Shown in pieces: positions 12,089 to 19,998 of a DNA stretch of 64,000 bases. The DNA is from Cyanobium sp. Aljojuca 7A6. GTDB lineage: Bacteria > Cyanobacteriota > Cyanobacteriia > PCC-6307 > Cyanobiaceae. Within the stretch, counting starts at the first letter, position 1, and the number at the start of each line of letters is the position of its first letter. A program made the position numbers and the translations under genes. Location: positions 62,001-126,000 of the forward strand of contig NZ_JAGQCY010000008.1 of the NCBI RefSeq assembly GCF_024346455.1, in the 5' to 3' direction. Under the pieces are notes generated by a model, which did no database searches, was not told where the DNA came from, and saw only the letters and a program-made list of their open reading frames with translations.

Positions 12089-12871
12089 TCAGACGACCCG
12101 TTTGAGATACCCATCGGGAGCCACGCTAATCAACAGCTTGTTGTCTATGTCATTGTCAATATGAAACTCGGGATGGCTCCTCAACCACTCGTGAACAGCC
12201 GTTTTTGGATTGTTGCCCACATCCCACGGGCGATCTGGGAAAGAGCCTGGAGGTAAGTCTTCGATCGCAGTATCGAAAACGATGCAGTAGCTGCCAACCG
12301 AGACAAGATCTGCATAGGCATTGAGCTCGGCGAGGACATGCTGGTGGGTGTGATTGGAATCCAGGGATACAAGAACATGTTCAGCACTGTCAGCATATCC
12401 ACGAGCTTGCTTGATGATATCGGGATCAATAGATGATCCCTCAATCAACTGCATTTTGAACCGCAACGGATGCTCATCGAGAGCTTTGCGGTTATGGGGA
12501 CGGATATCGATATCAATACCAACGACTTGGCGAGACGAGTGCCGAGGATCAAGGCCATCCATTACATCCAAGAGACAAAGCAAAGAGGCCGAGAGTGCCA
12601 GAGAGCCACCATGGGCAATTCCTGTCTCAAGAATTAGGTCCGGGCGCGAGTCAAAAACAATCTCTTGAAAAGCGAGGATATCCTGGGGATACTGAATAAT
12701 GGGACGTCCCATCCATTCAAATTTATAGGTATAGCCGATAAGATTGGTCATCATCGACCATGAGCGGGCCTGCAACTTAAGCCCTTCAACGAAAAGAGAT
12801 TCACTAATCTGATTTGACACGTTAGCTGGGTGCGTGAGGGACGAAGAAGATTGATGCCTATTTAAGCGCAA
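12089..12871 (-). CDS. CmcI-like (cephalosporin hydroxylase family) protein, probable sugar O-methyltransferase
   Basis: About 260 residues. Family-typical order: GRPIIQYPQDILAFQEIVFD, PDLILETGIAHGGSLALSAS, VVGIDIDIRPHNRKALDEHP, IEGSSIDPDII, VLVSLDSNHTHQHVLAELN and CIVFDTAIEDLP with an NPKTAVHEWL tail. Despite the family name these proteins have a methyltransferase fold, and members include rhamnosyl O-methyltransferases. It starts with TTG at 12871; no earlier ATG keeps the conserved N-terminal helix. It lies 6 bases after another methyltransferase gene. It lies in the low-GC segment. Confidence 0.83.
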   Translation of the reverse strand: MRLNRHQSSSSLTHPANVSNQISESLFVEGLKLQARSWSMMTNLIGYTYKFEWMGRPIIQYPQDILAFQEIVFDSRPDLILETGIAHGGSLALSASLLCLLDVMDGLDPRHSSRQVVGIDIDIRPHNRKALDEHPLRFKMQLIEGSSIDPDIIKQARGYADSAEHVLVSLDSNHTHQHVLAELNAYADLVSVGSYCIVFDTAIEDLPPGSFPDRPWDVGNNPKTAVHEWLRSHPEFHIDNDIDNKLLISVAPDGYLKRVV

Positions 12872-12877
12872 TAAGGG

Positions 12878-13684
12878 CTATGGAATCATGCAGGTTACAT
12901 GCAAGACATTGCACATCTCCGGATACTCTATTCCGAGCCTGTAACTTGCCTCACAGAATCGCTCTTTCCAGTCAACGGAGGTATCGCCGGACCTCCCCCA
13001 CCCATGCTCCGCAGTCTCCCACTGGGGCGCAGAAAGCAAGTGATCCATCTGAGGAGTGGACAGGGTCTTGAAGAAGACTCCACCCTGATCAACTGGGACC
13101 AAGCCAGCGCACTCAACGTCTTCCAGGAGTGAAGTCATGCAGTATGAGCGACGGTGACCTGCAATCTCAGTATCAAATGGAGACAGCTCTTCACAGTGAG
13201 TGAGACTCCCCATCAAGACATTTAATTGTCTGTTAATGGCTTTTGCGTTGGGAACATGAACAACAAGGACGCCGCCAGGCTTCAAGAATCCCTTTAGATG
13301 CTTCAAGAGGTCAACCGGTGATTGCACGTGCTCGAGCAAGTCAAGAAGCGTGACAACACTGAATAGATCACTGGAGGCATAGTCCTCGGCCAAAGCATTA
13401 TGGAACTCAGCTTCAGGAATGCGTCGTCTGGCCATCTCCACAACGTCAGCATTAGCATCAACACCAACAACCTTGTCAAATGAACTGGCCAACTGCTCAG
13501 TGATGAATCCATCTCCACAAGCGATATCCAGGAGAGATCTGCCGTCCGCGTCATCGCGGCAGTGGCGAGCGACCTGCTCGAGGCAAGAAACCACTTTATA
13601 CTTGGCGAGCTGCTTATTGTATTCCGGATGATATCCTGTTCGCGTCCATTTGAATTGCTGTTGGCGTAGAAGCTCTTGGCTCAT
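12878..13684 (-). CDS. Class I SAM-dependent methyltransferase
   Basis: About 268 residues starting MSQELLRQQQFKWTRTGYHPEYN. SAM-binding motif I is SLLDIACGDGFITEQLAS, motif II VVGVDANADVVEMAR, then FSVVTLLDLLEHVQSPVDLL and LKPGGVLVVHVPN, close to UbiG/COQ3-like methyltransferases found in glycan loci. The ATG at 13684 follows GAGAG, and the 105-base gap upstream (13685-13789) holds no other gene. Substrate unknown; O- or N-methylation of a sugar or of the lipid carrier product is possible. Confidence 0.85.
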   Translation of the reverse strand: MSQELLRQQQFKWTRTGYHPEYNKQLAKYKVVSCLEQVARHCRDDADGRSLLDIACGDGFITEQLASSFDKVVGVDANADVVEMARRRIPEAEFHNALAEDYASSDLFSVVTLLDLLEHVQSPVDLLKHLKGFLKPGGVLVVHVPNAKAINRQLNVLMGSLTHCEELSPFDTEIAGHRRSYCMTSLLEDVECAGLVPVDQGGVFFKTLSTPQMDHLLSAPQWETAEHGWGRSGDTSVDWKERFCEASYRLGIEYPEMCNVLHVTCMIP

Positions 13685-13789
13685 CTGACTCTCTCTCGTA
13701 TGGACTTGAAGTTTATCACGGCATCTGTGCTCCAGGATAGCCTCTAGACGTGCTCTCCTATGCCATATTCCAGATGACAATGGAGGGAT

Positions 13790-15034
13790 TCACTCGCTCA
13801 GCGAAGAATGCCGAGATGTCCTGATGTAGCTCTGAACATAGTCCATGGGATCAAACTCTTCCGCAGGAACGCCAGAAGGAGACGGACTGTCAAGAGAATG
13901 ATATTGGCTATGAAAAGTACCTGTAAAGGCGTTACGTTCAACAGGGGTCTCGAGGACATCCACCCCGTAGTTCCTGGCGATTTGCCTACCCAGCTCAGCC
14001 ACTGAGATCCTGCATGAATGACGACAGACATGGATGATGTCATTGCCCACACCAGGGGACAGCATCTGTTGCGTCAATTGGCAGACAGCAACCTCCAGAC
14101 TCATCAATGGAACGACCGGATAACCGTTGCTATACCGATGAATGAAGATAGTCTTTCCCGATGAAGCCGTATGGGCGAAATAGGTCAGGAATCGCGGAAG
14201 AATCGAGTCCCTTGAAAGCAGACAAGGCAGTCGGTAGATCTTAAAGCGCAAACCGCTTGACTGAGCCGCATAGATCAGTTGCTGCTCATGCAGGCATCGG
14301 GCTTGGGAGTAGAGAGAGAAGGGGACCGGGCGGGAAGATTCGACGACCTCTTGGTCAGTAGAAGCTTCGAAAACACTCCATGATGAGACGTAATGAAACA
14401 CGCAGTTTGCAGCTATGCAGGCCTGAAGAATGTCGACGAACTGAACGTAAGATTGCTTTGAACTAAGGTATGAGTTCGGAGGATCCGGATATGCGGAGTG
14501 AATGAGGTCTGTAATCCGGTTTAGGAGCAAGACCTCTTCATACCTCGTGGATCCCTTGTCTGCATCCGAAGAGTCGTCAAGACTGACGGGAAGAAGCCCA
14601 CCATTCATCTTTATGACACTTTGAAGCAACAAACGGCCTAAAGGCTGATCAGCACCCGTGATGGCGAAGGCACTTTTGCGTACAGCTTCACTGGAATTGC
14701 TTATCAGGGATCGGAGCAGACTGGGCTTGACGCATGACTCGACATGCTTCTCTTTGATGAGGGTGATCGCATCCCCTAAGGGAATGGAAGCATGGCGGCT
14801 GATCGCCAATGCAGCCAAGTAATTACTGCGTGAATGACCATAATCACAAGCAAAGCAGACCTTCCTTCCAAGATTGAGTTGGCCTAGACCGACAGCAAGA
14901 ATACCCTCGACCAATTGCTTTGCATTCCCATCGCCATCAATCAGTGGCCTGCAGTCTACAACTAGCCAGTTCGGAGGGATATCGTCAAAGACACTCGCAA
15001 CAGCAATGGTGTCATTATAGACAACAGAGAACAT
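13790..15034 (-). CDS. Dual-specificity-phosphatase-like domain fused to degenerate SDR domain
   Basis: About 414 residues. Residues 1-115 read as a cysteine-based phosphatase: WLVVDCRPLIDGDGN, a helix, then VCFACDYGHSRS containing CX5R (Cys63, Arg69), then DAITLIKEKH and PSLLRSL, the usual end of DSP domains. The His normally before Cys is Ala. Residues 121-400 read as an extended SDR: FAITGADQPLGRLLLQ (middle Gly of GxxGxxG replaced), FHYVSSWSVFEAS, and YSQAR where YxxxK is expected (Tyr242, Arg246). Its ATG overlaps the stop of the ATP-grasp gene (TAATG), so they are co-translated. Role is not recognised; a sugar-phosphate phosphatase with an NAD-binding or scaffolding half is inferred. 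Low GC. Confidence 0.68.
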   Translation of the reverse strand: MFSVVYNDTIAVASVFDDIPPNWLVVDCRPLIDGDGNAKQLVEGILAVGLGQLNLGRKVCFACDYGHSRSNYLAALAISRHASIPLGDAITLIKEKHVESCVKPSLLRSLISNSSEAVRKSAFAITGADQPLGRLLLQSVIKMNGGLLPVSLDDSSDADKGSTRYEEVLLLNRITDLIHSAYPDPPNSYLSSKQSYVQFVDILQACIAANCVFHYVSSWSVFEASTDQEVVESSRPVPFSLYSQARCLHEQQLIYAAQSSGLRFKIYRLPCLLSRDSILPRFLTYFAHTASSGKTIFIHRYSNGYPVVPLMSLEVAVCQLTQQMLSPGVGNDIIHVCRHSCRISVAELGRQIARNYGVDVLETPVERNAFTGTFHSQYHSLDSPSPSGVPAEEFDPMDYVQSYIRTSRHSSLSE

Positions 15035-16068
15035 TAGCCGGCATCCTGATGATATGGAACAAAGCATTCAGCGAAAGACCGAAGAGCCAGACCCTCAGAA
15101 GGAACAGGGTATCTGATAGGAGACCCAGACAGAAGATGGTTCAGAAAGAGTGAGACCTCGTTAACTCCTGCCAGTGCCCTGAGATATGTAGATGCCGAGA
15201 ATCGGGGGTTGATCTCAAATGGCATAATCACCCCATTCTTCAGTCGACACTGGATGTTCAATGGGCCGCAACTCCCCACGGCATCTGCAATTTTCATCGC
15301 TGCAGCTTCTATGGCCCCATCTCGAAAGAACTCACCCTGGGATGATCCAGAAGAGATCAGATGCTCCTGACTGCGGTCGTGCACTGAGAGCATATTTTGA
15401 AATGTCCTTCGAAGCAATATTGATCCAGCTGCAGTTCCATCTCTTTGGGAGAGCACGCCAATCGTCAATTCGTTTGATGAATCCTTGAGATACTCCTGGC
15501 AAATCCATGAATTAGCATCGCCAGCATGCAACGAGGCAAAACCGTGGAGGTCGCCGGCATTATAAAGAATGCTGATTCCACGGGAGCCTCCACTCTCAAT
15601 TCGGGGCTTCACAATGATGGGATAGCTAGCGTCATGTGAAAAAGCACCTGTCTCTGAAAGTAAATGGGTCGGCGGGCATGGAATCCCTTGACGAGACAGC
15701 AGGTCAAAGCACAGGTACTTATCCGCACATGCCATCACAGTAGACTCATTGTTGCCGACATAAAGAGCACCTGCTGCTTTCACATCATCCTCGATTCCGG
15801 CACAGACTCTTGCCACGACGTCACCTCCTGCGATCAGGAAATCGATCTGCTCTCCAGAAAGAATCTTGAATACGTCCGAGAGGAAGGACACCCCGTTCAG
15901 AACAAATGTTTGCTTGAATAGGTCAGAGTAGTGACCGTAGGCCTGTGGACTGATATCAGCACCAAGTACATCAAAGCCGCCATCCTTGGCCAGGGACTTC
16001 GCTATCTCCAATCCAAGGGAGGCACCCGCAATTCCCCAAATCAAAACTTTCGGCCGGGATAAACTCAT
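15034..16068 (-). CDS. ATP-grasp domain protein (carboxylate-amine ligase-like)
   Basis: About 344 residues. An N-terminal Rossmann-like pre-ATP-grasp domain opens with KVLIWGIAGASLGLEIAKSL. It is followed by ADKYLCFDLLSRQGIPCP, YPIIVKPRIESGGSRGI (ATP-binding lysine and glycine loop), WICQEYLKDSSNELTIGV, and the metal-binding end PLNIQCRLKNGVIMPFEINPRFS. This is the carbamoyl-phosphate-synthase-large-chain type of ATP-grasp, which joins a carboxylate to an amine through an acyl phosphate. In this locus it may attach an amino acid or acyl group to an amino sugar (inference). Overlaps the phosphatase-SDR start and lies 6 bases after the aminotransferase. Confidence 0.82.
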   Translation of the reverse strand: MSLSRPKVLIWGIAGASLGLEIAKSLAKDGGFDVLGADISPQAYGHYSDLFKQTFVLNGVSFLSDVFKILSGEQIDFLIAGGDVVARVCAGIEDDVKAAGALYVGNNESTVMACADKYLCFDLLSRQGIPCPPTHLLSETGAFSHDASYPIIVKPRIESGGSRGISILYNAGDLHGFASLHAGDANSWICQEYLKDSSNELTIGVLSQRDGTAAGSILLRRTFQNMLSVHDRSQEHLISSGSSQGEFFRDGAIEAAAMKIADAVGSCGPLNIQCRLKNGVIMPFEINPRFSASTYLRALAGVNEVSLFLNHLLSGSPIRYPVPSEGLALRSFAECFVPYHQDAG

Positions 16069-16074
16069 AAGTTG

Positions 16075-17205
16075 TCAGCGCTTGCGAGAGAAATAAGAGT
16101 GAACCTTGGCGCAGACAAAAGAACCATCATCATCCGAGAGATTGTGATGGGAGGGAAGATTGAGCGCTCGCAGATGGATGCTATCAGCGAGATAGGGAAT
16201 CTCAAAGGCCTTGCGGCCACCCGTGGGCGTTGAGCTGAGAGGCCAGAAAAAGACCCTTGCATCAACTCCATTCGTTTGCAGCTCTCCGATCAAGTCTTCA
16301 CGATGGAAAGGAGTTTCATCGTCAACCACAAAGGTGGGCATCCAGAATCCGTTGGTGCAGCCATCCGGCTCCGGATTCATCCTGAGCGGAAGATCCTTCA
16401 GTGCCTCTTGATAGAGCATAAAGATCTTTCGTTTGGCGGCAACAAGTTCATCAATCCGCTGGATCTGTGCGCAGCCAATTGCGGCTTGGACATTACTCAT
16501 CTTGTACTTGAAGCCCACCATTTCTGGCCAGAACTGCCTGGATTGGCCACGGGCACGCCCATGGTTGGAAAGCGTCAGCACCAGCTCATAAAGGTCCGCA
16601 TCGTTAGTGACAAACATGCCACCTTCGCCTGTGGTGATGGTTTTTGTGCCATGGAATGAGAATGCACCGAAACGGCCCATACTCCCAGCACGACTGCCGT
16701 GAAAAACCGAACCAATGGCCTCAGCGGCATCTTCAATCACGGGGATGCCATGGCGCTCTCCAATCGCCAACAGAGCATTCATATCGCAAAGGTTGCCATA
16801 GAGATGAACCGCCACGATGGCCTTGGTCCTGTGCGTGATCGCAGCCTCCACCTGCTCGGGGTCCAGGCACCAGCTATCCGAGAGGATGTCCACGAACACC
16901 GGTGTAGCCCCGAGGTGAACGATGGGGGCGAGCGTCGCAACCCAATTGGTATCTGCCATAATCACCTCATCGCCTGGCCCGATACCGAGGCCGTACAGAC
17001 CCATATGCAGTGCGCCTGTGCAACTGCTAGTGGCGATGGCATAGGCCACACCCAGGTGGCGCTTGAAGGCCTCCTCGAAGCGGACGATGTAGTCATAGCA
17101 ATGTTCACCCCAACCGTTGCGAGCTGCATCGGTGGCATAGGCCACCTCCAGCTCCGTGATCGACGGCCTTGTGTACGGAATTCTTGGGGGGGAGAAGTCG
17201 TCCAT
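16075..17205 (-). CDS. DegT/DnrJ/EryC1/StrS family PLP-dependent aminotransferase
   Basis: About 376 residues. It begins with IPYTRPSITELEVAYATDA and NGWGEHCYDYIVRFEEAF, typical of sugar aminotransferases. The core has TSSCTGALHMGLYGLGIGPG, GDEVIMADTNWVAT, VIEDAAEAIG and the PLP-lysine segment SFHGTKTITTGEGG. Members put an amino group on a keto nucleotide sugar, as in perosamine synthetase. It is 3 bases after the C-methyltransferase gene, so the two probably act on the same keto-sugar pathway; the product could then be used by the ATP-grasp enzyme next door. Confidence 0.9.
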   Translation of the reverse strand: MDDFSPPRIPYTRPSITELEVAYATDAARNGWGEHCYDYIVRFEEAFKRHLGVAYAIATSSCTGALHMGLYGLGIGPGDEVIMADTNWVATLAPIVHLGATPVFVDILSDSWCLDPEQVEAAITHRTKAIVAVHLYGNLCDMNALLAIGERHGIPVIEDAAEAIGSVFHGSRAGSMGRFGAFSFHGTKTITTGEGGMFVTNDADLYELVLTLSNHGRARGQSRQFWPEMVGFKYKMSNVQAAIGCAQIQRIDELVAAKRKIFMLYQEALKDLPLRMNPEPDGCTNGFWMPTFVVDDETPFHREDLIGELQTNGVDARVFFWPLSSTPTGGRKAFEIPYLADSIHLRALNLPSHHNLSDDDGSFVCAKVHSYFSRKR

Positions 17206-17208
17206 GGC

Positions 17209-18450
17209 TCAGATGACGGTGAGAATGGGGATCGCCACTTTCACTGGGACGTCGATCCTGCCTCTGAGCTGGGCCTTCACTTCGCCCGCCAGGTTCCATG
17301 GAAGCACAAGGAGCTCATCAGGCTGCCGCTCTAAGAGATCATCAACACCAATGATGGGAATGTGGCTTCCTGGCAACCATTTTCCGATCTTGCTGGGGGC
17401 AAGATCGGCCACCGCTTCCAGCAGGTCGCTGCGGATGCCGGCGAAATTCAGCAGGGTGTTTCCCTTGGCTGCGGCACCATAGGCAAGCACCCGTTTACCG
17501 GACCGGCGAGCAGCCAGCAGATACTCCATAAGCGCAAACTTGGCTTCCAAGGCTCGTTCCTGGCAGCGGACGTAGGCCTCCAGCGACGTGAGCCCGGCTA
17601 CGGACTCCTCCGCCAGGACCCCCTCCACAGCATCCCGTTCGTGCGGCGTCTGGGCAGCAGCGGCAGGATCCCCGCTACGGGCTAGCCATACCCGCAGGCT
17701 GCCACCGTGGGTGGTGATCTGCTCGGCGTCGAGCACCATCAGCCCGGCATCCTCAGCCATTCGCTGCAGAGTCGTGAGGCTCAGGTAGCTGTAGTGCTCG
17801 TGATAGATCGTGTCGAACTGGTTTCCGTCTAGCAATCGCAACAAATGGGGAAACTCCACAGAGGCCACACCAGAGGGCTTCAGGACACGGAAAATGGCCG
17901 CTAGAAAGTCATTGATATCTGGGACATGCGCGAGCACGTTGTTGGCCACCAAAAGATCGGCCCGGTAACCCTGGGAAACCAGCTCGGCGGCAAAGCCGCC
18001 ACCGAAGAATCGCTCGCGTGTATCGATGCCTTTGCTCCTCGCAGCCTTCGCCGTTGCACGGGTTGGTTCGATACCGAGGCACGGAATCCCTTGTGCCTTC
18101 ACGTACTGGAGCAGATAGCCATCGTTGCTGGCCACCTCCACAACCAGACTGCCGGGACCGAGCGAAAGGCGCTCGACGGCCGCCTTGACGAACCGCTCCG
18201 CATGTTGACACCAGGTGATCGACGTGCTGGAAAAGTAGGCATAATCCGCAGTGAACAATTCATCCGCTGGTGCATGCATGGGCAACTGCACGAGCCAGCA
18301 GTTTGAGCACACATAAACGCGCAGCGGAAACGTAACTTCCGGCAGACTCAGCTTCGCCTCGCACAGGTAGGCATTGCTGGGCGGCTGATGGCCGAGATCA
18401 ATGACTTCATGCTGCAGTGCAGTTGCGCAGTGTCGGCAGTGGTGGGTCAC
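17209..18450 (-). CDS. NDP-hexose C-methyltransferase (TylC3/TcaB9-like)
   Basis: About 413 residues in the three-part layout of sugar C-methyltransferases. An N-terminal zinc finger has Cys5, Cys8, Cys48 and Cys51 (CRHC and CSNC) with GHQPPSNAYL between. A SAM domain with VVEVASNDGYLLQYV follows, and the signature YHEHYSYLSL. The C-terminal Rossmann-like region has VLAYGAAAKGNTLLNF. The family adds a methyl to C-3 of a 4-keto deoxysugar nucleotide, giving branched sugars. It starts with GTG in a GTGA overlap with the epimerase gene, consistent with consecutive steps. Substrate assignment is inference. Confidence 0.87.
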   Translation of the reverse strand: MTHHCRHCATALQHEVIDLGHQPPSNAYLCEAKLSLPEVTFPLRVYVCSNCWLVQLPMHAPADELFTADYAYFSSTSITWCQHAERFVKAAVERLSLGPGSLVVEVASNDGYLLQYVKAQGIPCLGIEPTRATAKAARSKGIDTRERFFGGGFAAELVSQGYRADLLVANNVLAHVPDINDFLAAIFRVLKPSGVASVEFPHLLRLLDGNQFDTIYHEHYSYLSLTTLQRMAEDAGLMVLDAEQITTHGGSLRVWLARSGDPAAAAQTPHERDAVEGVLAEESVAGLTSLEAYVRCQERALEAKFALMEYLLAARRSGKRVLAYGAAAKGNTLLNFAGIRSDLLEAVADLAPSKIGKWLPGSHIPIIGVDDLLERQPDELLVLPWNLAGEVKAQLRGRIDVPVKVAIPILTVI

Positions 18451-18995
18451 AGCAGGCGCTCCAGGAGAGGCAGCGACCGGTCACGCTCACTCAAGTCCCT
18501 GGGTTGCATCGGCCAGTCGATGCCGAGCTGGGGATCATCCCATCGCACACCCGTCTCGTCCGAAGGGTGATAAGGAGCCCCGTGAAGGTAAAGCAGGGTA
18601 CTGTCCGGCTCCAGCACCTGAAACCCATGGGCACATCCCGTGGGGATCAGCAGTGAGTTCCCCGCTTCGGCACTGAGGTCCACCGCCACCCACAGGCCAC
18701 GCGTCGGGGAGCCCCGCCGCAGGTCAACGGCCACGTCCCATACACGCCCCACCACGCAGGTGACCAATCGGACCTCTGGAGGCGCCCCCCGTTGGAGATG
18801 CAGGCCTCGAAGCGTTCCGGGGCTTGGGTTGTGGCTGAGATTCACCTGCTCGATCGGCCGATCCCCTCCCCAGAGCTGGTTCCATTCCTCGCGCCGGAAG
18901 ACATTCAGAAAGCTGCCACGGTGATCGCCATGCGGCCGGCGGCTGATCTCCACCACTCCCTCGAGGGCCGTGGCGCGGTGACTGATCACGGCCAT
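18447..18995 (-). CDS. dTDP-4-dehydrorhamnose 3,5-epimerase family protein
   Basis: About 182 residues, RmlC-like cupin. The active-site RGLHLQRG, DVAVDLRRGSPT, IPTGCAHGFQVL and a WDDPQLGIDWP ending are all present, and the tyrosine-containing LLYLHGAPYHP segment is kept. The lysine of the usual QGKLVR segment is replaced (PEVRLVTC). A second, standard RfbC lies at 22.5 kb, so this copy probably acts on a different 4-keto sugar, likely that of the adjacent C-methyltransferase. The ATG at 18995 lies one base after the stop of the upstream gene; a longer N-terminus would overlap that gene. Confidence 0.86.
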   Translation of the reverse strand: MAVISHRATALEGVVEISRRPHGDHRGSFLNVFRREEWNQLWGGDRPIEQVNLSHNPSPGTLRGLHLQRGAPPEVRLVTCVVGRVWDVAVDLRRGSPTRGLWVAVDLSAEAGNSLLIPTGCAHGFQVLEPDSTLLYLHGAPYHPSDETGVRWDDPQLGIDWPMQPRDLSERDRSLPLLERLL

Positions 18996-18996
18996 C

Positions 18997-19998
18997 TCAG
19001 GCGAGAGCGGGCCGACGCAGCACGGTGAAGGCATCGAGATCCTCCAGACCCCAGCCATCGGCGAGGCCACTGAGGCGCTGAAACGCCACGTCCAGACCGG
19101 CCTCCTCTGCAAACCCTCGCATCCGCTCGGCGGTCATGTCGCTGCGGTTGCCGGGATTGTGGGCCCAGTCGCTGTTGGGAGCAACCGTCCCGTAGTTGGA
19201 GTGGTGCAGGAACGCACTTCCACCGGGCCGCAGGACCCGCGCAATCTCATGGACATAGGCGCGCACCACGGACGAATCGAAATGAACCATGGAATCAAAG
19301 GAATAGACAAGGGAATGGGAACTCGCATCGACCATCGAGAGGGAATCACCATTGGTAACGAAGTAGCGGAATGTGCAGCCATCACGCTGCTCACCGAACC
19401 GCTCTCTGCAGGCCTCGATGCAATTGGGATTCACATCAATCAGCGTGATCGATCCAGCCAGCCTACGTAAATGCTCTGTATTGCGGCCATGGCCCGGAGC
19501 AAGCTCAAGAACGTCAGTGAAGTCAAGATCCTTGATGATGGGCCAGATCACCCCCTCCCACTGCTTCTGGATGTAAGGCTCAGCGTCACGGTAATAGTTG
19601 CCTTCTGCATGGGCGTCACGACACTGGGCAATGGTTTTGAGCCGAATCATCTCAAGTGCCACATCACCGCAGACGGAAGCCGCATCCTCCTGATCCAGCC
19701 GCATGGAAGCCTGGAGAAGATCAGTAGCCATTCGAGTCTGAAGCTCCTCCTGGAAGCAGAGAATCACACCACTACGTGTCAGATCATGGGATAGAACCTG
19801 TTCGCGGAGGCTGTCTGGAAAGCCAGCCTTGACGATCCCGATGAGATCAAGCCAGGGCACCAACCGGCCAGGATTTTTCTGGACGCGGTCGATGGCCTGT
19901 CTCCTGGAGGACGGAGGGCGGTTGGCCGTCGAAGCCGCGAGACGGGCCAACTTCCTCCGGATCCTGGCAGCCAGCGAACGCATCGAGATCCGATCCAC
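18997..19998 (-). CDS. Class I SAM-dependent methyltransferase
   Basis: About 333 residues. The first 130 residues are helical and basic without a recognised domain. The catalytic part has DVLELAPGHGRNTEHL (motif I), ITLIDVNPNCIEACRERF, YSFDSMVHFDSSVV and VLRPGGSAFLHHSNYG. Such proteins follow ABC-exporter genes in O-antigen loci and sometimes cap or terminate the chain by methylation; that role is possible here because it is the first gene after the ABC exporter pair and the exporter ATPase has a Wzt-like tail. Start at ATG 19998. Confidence 0.8.
   Translation of the reverse strand: MDRISMRSLAARIRRKLARLAASTANRPPSSRRQAIDRVQKNPGRLVPWLDLIGIVKAGFPDSLREQVLSHDLTRSGVILCFQEELQTRMATDLLQASMRLDQEDAASVCGDVALEMIRLKTIAQCRDAHAEGNYYRDAEPYIQKQWEGVIWPIIKDLDFTDVLELAPGHGRNTEHLRRLAGSITLIDVNPNCIEACRERFGEQRDGCTFRYFVTNGDSLSMVDASSHSLVYSFDSMVHFDSSVVRAYVHEIARVLRPGGSAFLHHSNYGTVAPNSDWAHNPGNRSDMTAERMRGFAEEAGLDVAFQRLSGLADGWGLEDLDAFTVLRRPALA

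Follow-up and report, generated by a model that had tools for sequence, protein, structure and literature searches.

The window, a stretch of 64,000 nucleotides from Cyanobium sp. Aljojuca 7A6, contains a sugar-modification operon in which one gene encodes a dual-specificity phosphatase (DSP)-like domain fused to an extended SDR with altered cofactor and catalytic motifs (Table 1). This gene adjoins an ATP-grasp ligase gene, and several related ATP-grasp genes in other bacteria adjoin separate phosphatases of unrelated fold. The explanation that we favour, with some reserve, is that the fusion protein works in a cell-surface amino-sugar pathway, as a bifunctional enzyme or as a phosphatase combined with a scaffold, and that its predicted activity would be to remove phosphate from a small molecule in the service of the ATP-grasp ligase.

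Table 1. Features of the fusion gene and of its operon (positions in the window).
Feature	Positions	Strand	Description
DSP-SDR fusion gene	13790..15034	-	414 aa; ATG 15034, stop 13790
DSP-like phosphatase domain, N-terminal	14690..15034	-	residues 1 to ~112-115; Pfam DSPc, local profile, AF2 and VIA
CX5R signature CDYGHSRS	14825..14848	-	residues 63-70; putative nucleophile Cys63, Arg69, Ser70
Acidic loop DGDGN	14924..14938	-	residues 33-37; D33 or D35 candidate general acid
Extended SDR half, C-terminal	13793..14674	-	residues ~121-414; Pfam Epimerase and RmlD_sub_bind, E ~1e-6
Degenerate NAD(P) motif GADQPLG	14636..14656	-	residues 127-133; expected GxxGxxG
YSQAR	14297..14311	-	residues 242-246; expected YxxxK
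ATP-grasp ligase	15034..16068	-	NF009402, PRK12767 type
DegT/DnrJ/EryC1/StrS sugar aminotransferase	16075..17205	-	E 2e-118
Sugar C-methyltransferase	17209..18450	-	Methyltransf_13/23/14
RmlC-like dTDP-sugar 3,5-epimerase	18447..19112	-	TIGR01221 E 1.9e-44, just under cut-off
SAM methyltransferase	12878..13780	-	Methyltransf_23; relative L081:4755-5480
RMNT/CmcI-type methyltransferase	12089..12871	-	62% identical to L081:8051-8833

The operon shows the gene order RmlC-like epimerase, C-methyltransferase, DegT aminotransferase, ATP-grasp ligase, DSP-SDR fusion, methyltransferase and CmcI-type methyltransferase, a setting that agrees with the role in sugar chemistry proposed in an earlier note on this DNA. 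The limits of the fusion gene are exactly those that the earlier note gave, and the same frame has an alternative upstream start at 15067, which gives a protein of 425 aa. The stop codon of the ATP-grasp gene overlaps the start codon of the fusion gene (TAATG), so that the ligase gene is adjacent to both an SDR and a phosphatase in the form of one coupled gene. From the CmcI-type gene to the ATP-grasp gene (12089-16068) the GC content is 0.49-0.51 vs 0.66 in the window, which suggests that this low-GC block was probably acquired horizontally. A YfcE-like metallophosphoesterase is absent from the operon of the window and from the stretch that contains the ortholog described below. The whole genome G542 shows only a weak metallophosphoesterase match (E 1.6e-4), and the genome of the window encodes a metallophosphoesterase of this superfamily at another place, within an unrelated operon which we take to be of COG0523 type. 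Past the end of the CmcI-type gene, the genome of the ortholog has different genes.

The N-terminal domain contains the CX5R(S/T) loop that the earlier note had placed at residues 60-70; the motif is present, and its position is residues 63-70. The bare pattern CxxGxxR[ST] turns up in 112 of 20000 shuffled versions of the fusion protein and in three of the 197 ORFs of 100 aa or more in the window. Taken by itself, the motif is thus evidence of weak to moderate strength, and the surrounding context decides. When the N-terminal 118 aa are isolated, DSPc (PF00782) is the sole Pfam match among 24736 models (E 0.015), with a score of 15.6 bits that is below the gathering cut-off of 33.5. A local profile made from 30 cyanobacterial DSPs gives the whole protein 14.8 bits and the N-terminus 18.1 bits, and the best of 2000 shuffles 7.0; these two results bear out the reading of the motif as part of a DSP-like context. 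In the alignment with cyanobacterial DSPs, the Cys, Arg and Ser of the P-loop are invariant, and the fusion has an Ala where DSPs usually have a His before the Cys. The acidic residues D33 and D35 are located 28-30 residues ahead of Cys63; alignment A2 matches them with the PD motif that standalone DSPs have, and other alignments do not. Standalone cyanobacterial DSPs (such as L007, L050 and L053) align with the fusion across the P-loop and the following helices; in contrast, they are encoded by separate genes and their motif is mostly HC.AG.ERSP. A sequence search against PDB chains gave no meaningful match. Low-molecular-weight protein tyrosine phosphatases (LMW-PTP) carry their P-loop at the N-terminus, and for this reason an LMW-PTP identity was dropped.

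The full-length fold was predicted by AF2 from alignment A8 alone, whose DSP rows span only residues 55-110, and several mixed alignments that misplaced DSP or SDR rows were left out of it. The A8 model shows block means of 73-94 in residues 1-100, with the loop 31-40 at 50, and low confidence in the SDR half. In this model, residues 1-112 match DSPs by Foldseek and VIA, among them DUSP28 (5y15; Z 12.4, 2.1 Å over 111 residues). The model from the two orthologs alone has a pLDDT of 53, and none of its structural matches exceeds Z 4.6; even so, its top rows include DSPs and its elements have the same order as in the A8 model. The DSP fold of the N-terminal domain is therefore supported, yet it leans on homologue rows, because the good model used DSP rows and the two-ortholog model is poor. 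With those rows, a phosphatase fold is predicted around Cys63, the outcome that the earlier note had named as a check of its proposal, and both fold and active site stand as predictions. Compared with DSPs of known structure (DUSP28 and DUSP9/MKP-4), the fusion shares the CX5R loop, the Ser after the Arg, the order of elements and the predicted fold, and has a candidate acidic loop ahead of the CX5R loop; it differs in its ~15-18% identity, its score under the Pfam cut-off, the Ala before the Cys and the fused SDR.

The C-terminal half passes both Pfam cut-offs, with 28.1 bits for Epimerase (cut-off 20.9) and 28.6 bits for RmlD_sub_bind (cut-off 27). It shows GADQPLG, in which the second glycine of GxxGxxG is lost, and YSQAR in place of YxxxK, which supports the earlier note in its view of this half as an SDR that departs from the usual motifs. 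The fusion protein also contains SSWSVF at residue 217. The nearest sequences to this half are standalone SDRs of ~273-286 aa (24-26% identity over ~140 aa), and BLASTP gave no full-length alignment between it and the SDRs of related cassettes. Extended sugar SDRs of the RmlD/Epimerase type (L009, L010 and L013) share with it this identity and the catalytic Ser and Tyr positions, whereas the fusion has YxxxR and GADQPLG and the relatives have no DSP domain. Since the second glycine and the lysine of YxxxK are lost, and the standalone cassette SDRs retain YxxxK, the motifs suggest that the redox activity of this half is reduced or gone, and that its role is perhaps structural, substrate-holding or that of a scaffold. 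These losses, together with the Ala that stands before the DSP Cys where a His is usual, could be extended to a protein in which both halves are dead and which, as a pseudo-phosphatase/pseudo-SDR, would be a scaffold to organise the ATP-grasp and DegT enzymes. Such a protein seems quite improbable, given that the two orthologs are under purifying selection and neither has lost the acidic loop or any of the P-loop residues Cys, Gly, Arg and Ser.

The only ortholog found (L044:6986-8263) belongs to a second species of the genus, shows the same architecture with 92% identity, and retains Cys63 and Arg69, so that the residue check named in the earlier note turned out in favour of the phosphatase reading. 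Among the 42 genomes of the genus, the fusion is in one other genome, and none was seen elsewhere in the phylum among 386 sampled genomes. The N-terminal domain alone recovered only the ortholog in 400 genomes of the family; its weaker matches (E 0.004 and up) are not credible, the best being an unrelated frame. Peptide-pattern scans of genome contigs with the fusion and with the ATP-grasp protein, and of a viral collection with the fusion, gave no relatives; tblastn of plasmids and phages with the fusion gave nothing useful and a DNA search of E. coli genomes gave none. Comparison of the two orthologs gives a dN/dS of 0.26 overall, 0.18 in the DSP part, 0.22-0.25 in the SDR and 0.53 in the tail, and shows all the P-loop residues to be identical. 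The fusion is under purifying selection, and its identical form in a second genome rules out a frameshift or an assembly artefact. Its presence in two genomes of a single genus, within a low-GC block of probable horizontal origin, would fit a DSP domain captured by chance, with an unrelated or minor role and no functional link to the SDR. We regard this as very improbable, since two species retain the fusion with the low ratio of the DSP part, and the domain sits where related operons have a phosphatase.

Relatives of the ATP-grasp ligase are beside phosphatases of unrelated fold in cyanobacteria, Bacillota, Deltaproteobacteria and Sinorhizobium. A metallophosphoesterase adjoins the ATP-grasp relative at six loci (L080, L081, L083, L091, L105 and L106) and a PHP-domain protein adjoins it in three lineages (L104, L110 and Sinorhizobium L082/L084/L092); these counts are descriptive and not a tested enrichment, because the loci were picked as best matches. 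By NCBIfam, the metallophosphoesterases lie close to YfcE, and the PHP-domain proteins close to PolX/histidinol phosphatase. A standalone SDR is at or near the phosphatase/ATP-grasp pair at L080, L081, L083, L091, L105 and in Sinorhizobium, and none was seen near the pair at L104, L106 and L110. Locus L081 contains a methyltransferase, an SDR, an ATP-grasp ligase, a metallophosphoesterase, a CmcI-type methyltransferase and a DegT aminotransferase, which is the set of the window with the phosphatase separate; identities to the window are 62% for CmcI, 46% for DegT, 27-28% for ATP-grasp and 28% for the methyltransferase. Locus L083 (Acetoanaerobium) shows DegT, ATP-grasp, SDR and metallophosphoesterase genes ordered as in the window. 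A phosphatase slot beside the ATP-grasp ligase thus recurs. The cassettes L080, L081, L083, L091 and L092 have the same kinds of genes as the window, with an adjacent phosphatase, and differ from it in that this phosphatase is separate and of unrelated fold and in that their SDR keeps YxxxK. The common phosphatase step is one that we infer, because YfcE-like proteins may act as phosphodiesterases and the activities of PHP proteins are diverse.

The genome of the window contains another DSP-like protein (L007:1447-1998, G000 C29), whose neighbours we take to be Wzc-like and exosortase-like genes. Bacterial tyrosine kinases and phosphatases often regulate polysaccharide export, and with a DSP-like gene beside a Wzc-like gene in the same genome, the fusion could be a protein-phosphatase regulator, whose DSP domain would have as its target a Tyr/Ser-phosphorylated protein of the polysaccharide machinery, with the SDR half as a sensor or anchor. 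We consider this unlikely: the fusion is translationally coupled to a ligase within a biosynthetic operon, and the slot in the relatives is held by metallophosphoesterases or PHP proteins, not by Cys protein phosphatases.

For the favoured small-molecule phosphatase, catalysis, substrate and step order are worded here as we infer them. A divergent Cys phosphatase domain of the DSP/PTP superfamily would hydrolyse the phosphate monoester of a small-molecule intermediate, with Cys63 as nucleophile, Arg69 as phosphate binder and D33 or D35 as general acid. This domain would fill the step done elsewhere by the separate YfcE-like metallophosphoesterase or PHP protein, and the SDR half would occupy the place of the standalone SDR of related operons. 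Several observations weigh against this explanation: the DSP score under the Pfam cut-off, the dependence of the good fold model on DSP rows, the ATP-grasp relatives with no phosphatase next to them, the failure of BLASTP to align the SDR half over its full length with the cassette SDRs, and the metallophosphoesterase elsewhere in the genome of the window. As a working guess from the enzyme types, DegT may make an amino sugar, the ATP-grasp ligase may attach to this sugar an acyl group that carries a phosphate, the phosphatase may then take the phosphate off, and the methyltransferases may complete the group. A broader reading, which is tentative and somewhat doubtful, is that ATP-grasp, SDR and an interchangeable phosphatase form a widespread, as yet undescribed module making acyl-amino sugars that are phosphorylated and then dephosphorylated, and that here a DSP fused to an altered, substrate-positioning SDR has taken the place of the usual phosphatase and would be a metabolite-specific bacterial DSP. 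DSP-type phosphatases, mostly known for acting on proteins or polymers, would then be tied to a defined small-molecule pathway, and three unrelated phosphatase folds would share one slot in a recurring ATP-grasp/SDR/phosphatase set. A substrate common to the metallophosphoesterase, PHP and DSP versions would be the pathway intermediate, which makes the question of the substrate testable.

With the fusion, a surface-sugar pathway probably obtains its phosphate-removing step in a new way. Each part is of a known kind, and the earlier note knew of no described fusion; in the literature searched, which covered few subscription journals, no description of a DSP-SDR fusion or of the cassette was found, so that the novelty of the architecture and of the displacement is weakly indicated. 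The earlier note had also drawn an analogy with the glucan phosphatases laforin and SEX4. Its DSP-like domain in a sugar context stands, whereas the glycan analogy has no specific evidence and the context points to a small-molecule phosphatase. Laforin and SEX4 resemble the fusion in having a DSP domain with a link to carbohydrates (PMC3162602, PMC2714694). Laforin differs in that its partner is a carbohydrate-binding module, its substrate is polymeric glucan and it is eukaryotic. The partner in the fusion is an SDR, and no carbohydrate-binding module is among its Pfam matches.

Other relatives of the ATP-grasp ligase show different surroundings. No adjacent phosphatase is found at L085, L086, L087/L088, L111 and the divergent L107-L109 and L112. 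The closest relative (L085:6007-6981, 38% identity) comes from the viral collection, where its contig has two radical-SAM-like genes beside it and no adjacent phosphatase or SDR. At L105 and L106, the metallophosphoesterase and ATP-grasp pair is within clusters with a NeuB-like synthase, and therefore the pair is not limited to one sugar type. Loci L107, L108, L109 and L112 contain a divergent ATP-grasp subfamily, with a DegT aminotransferase directly after it.
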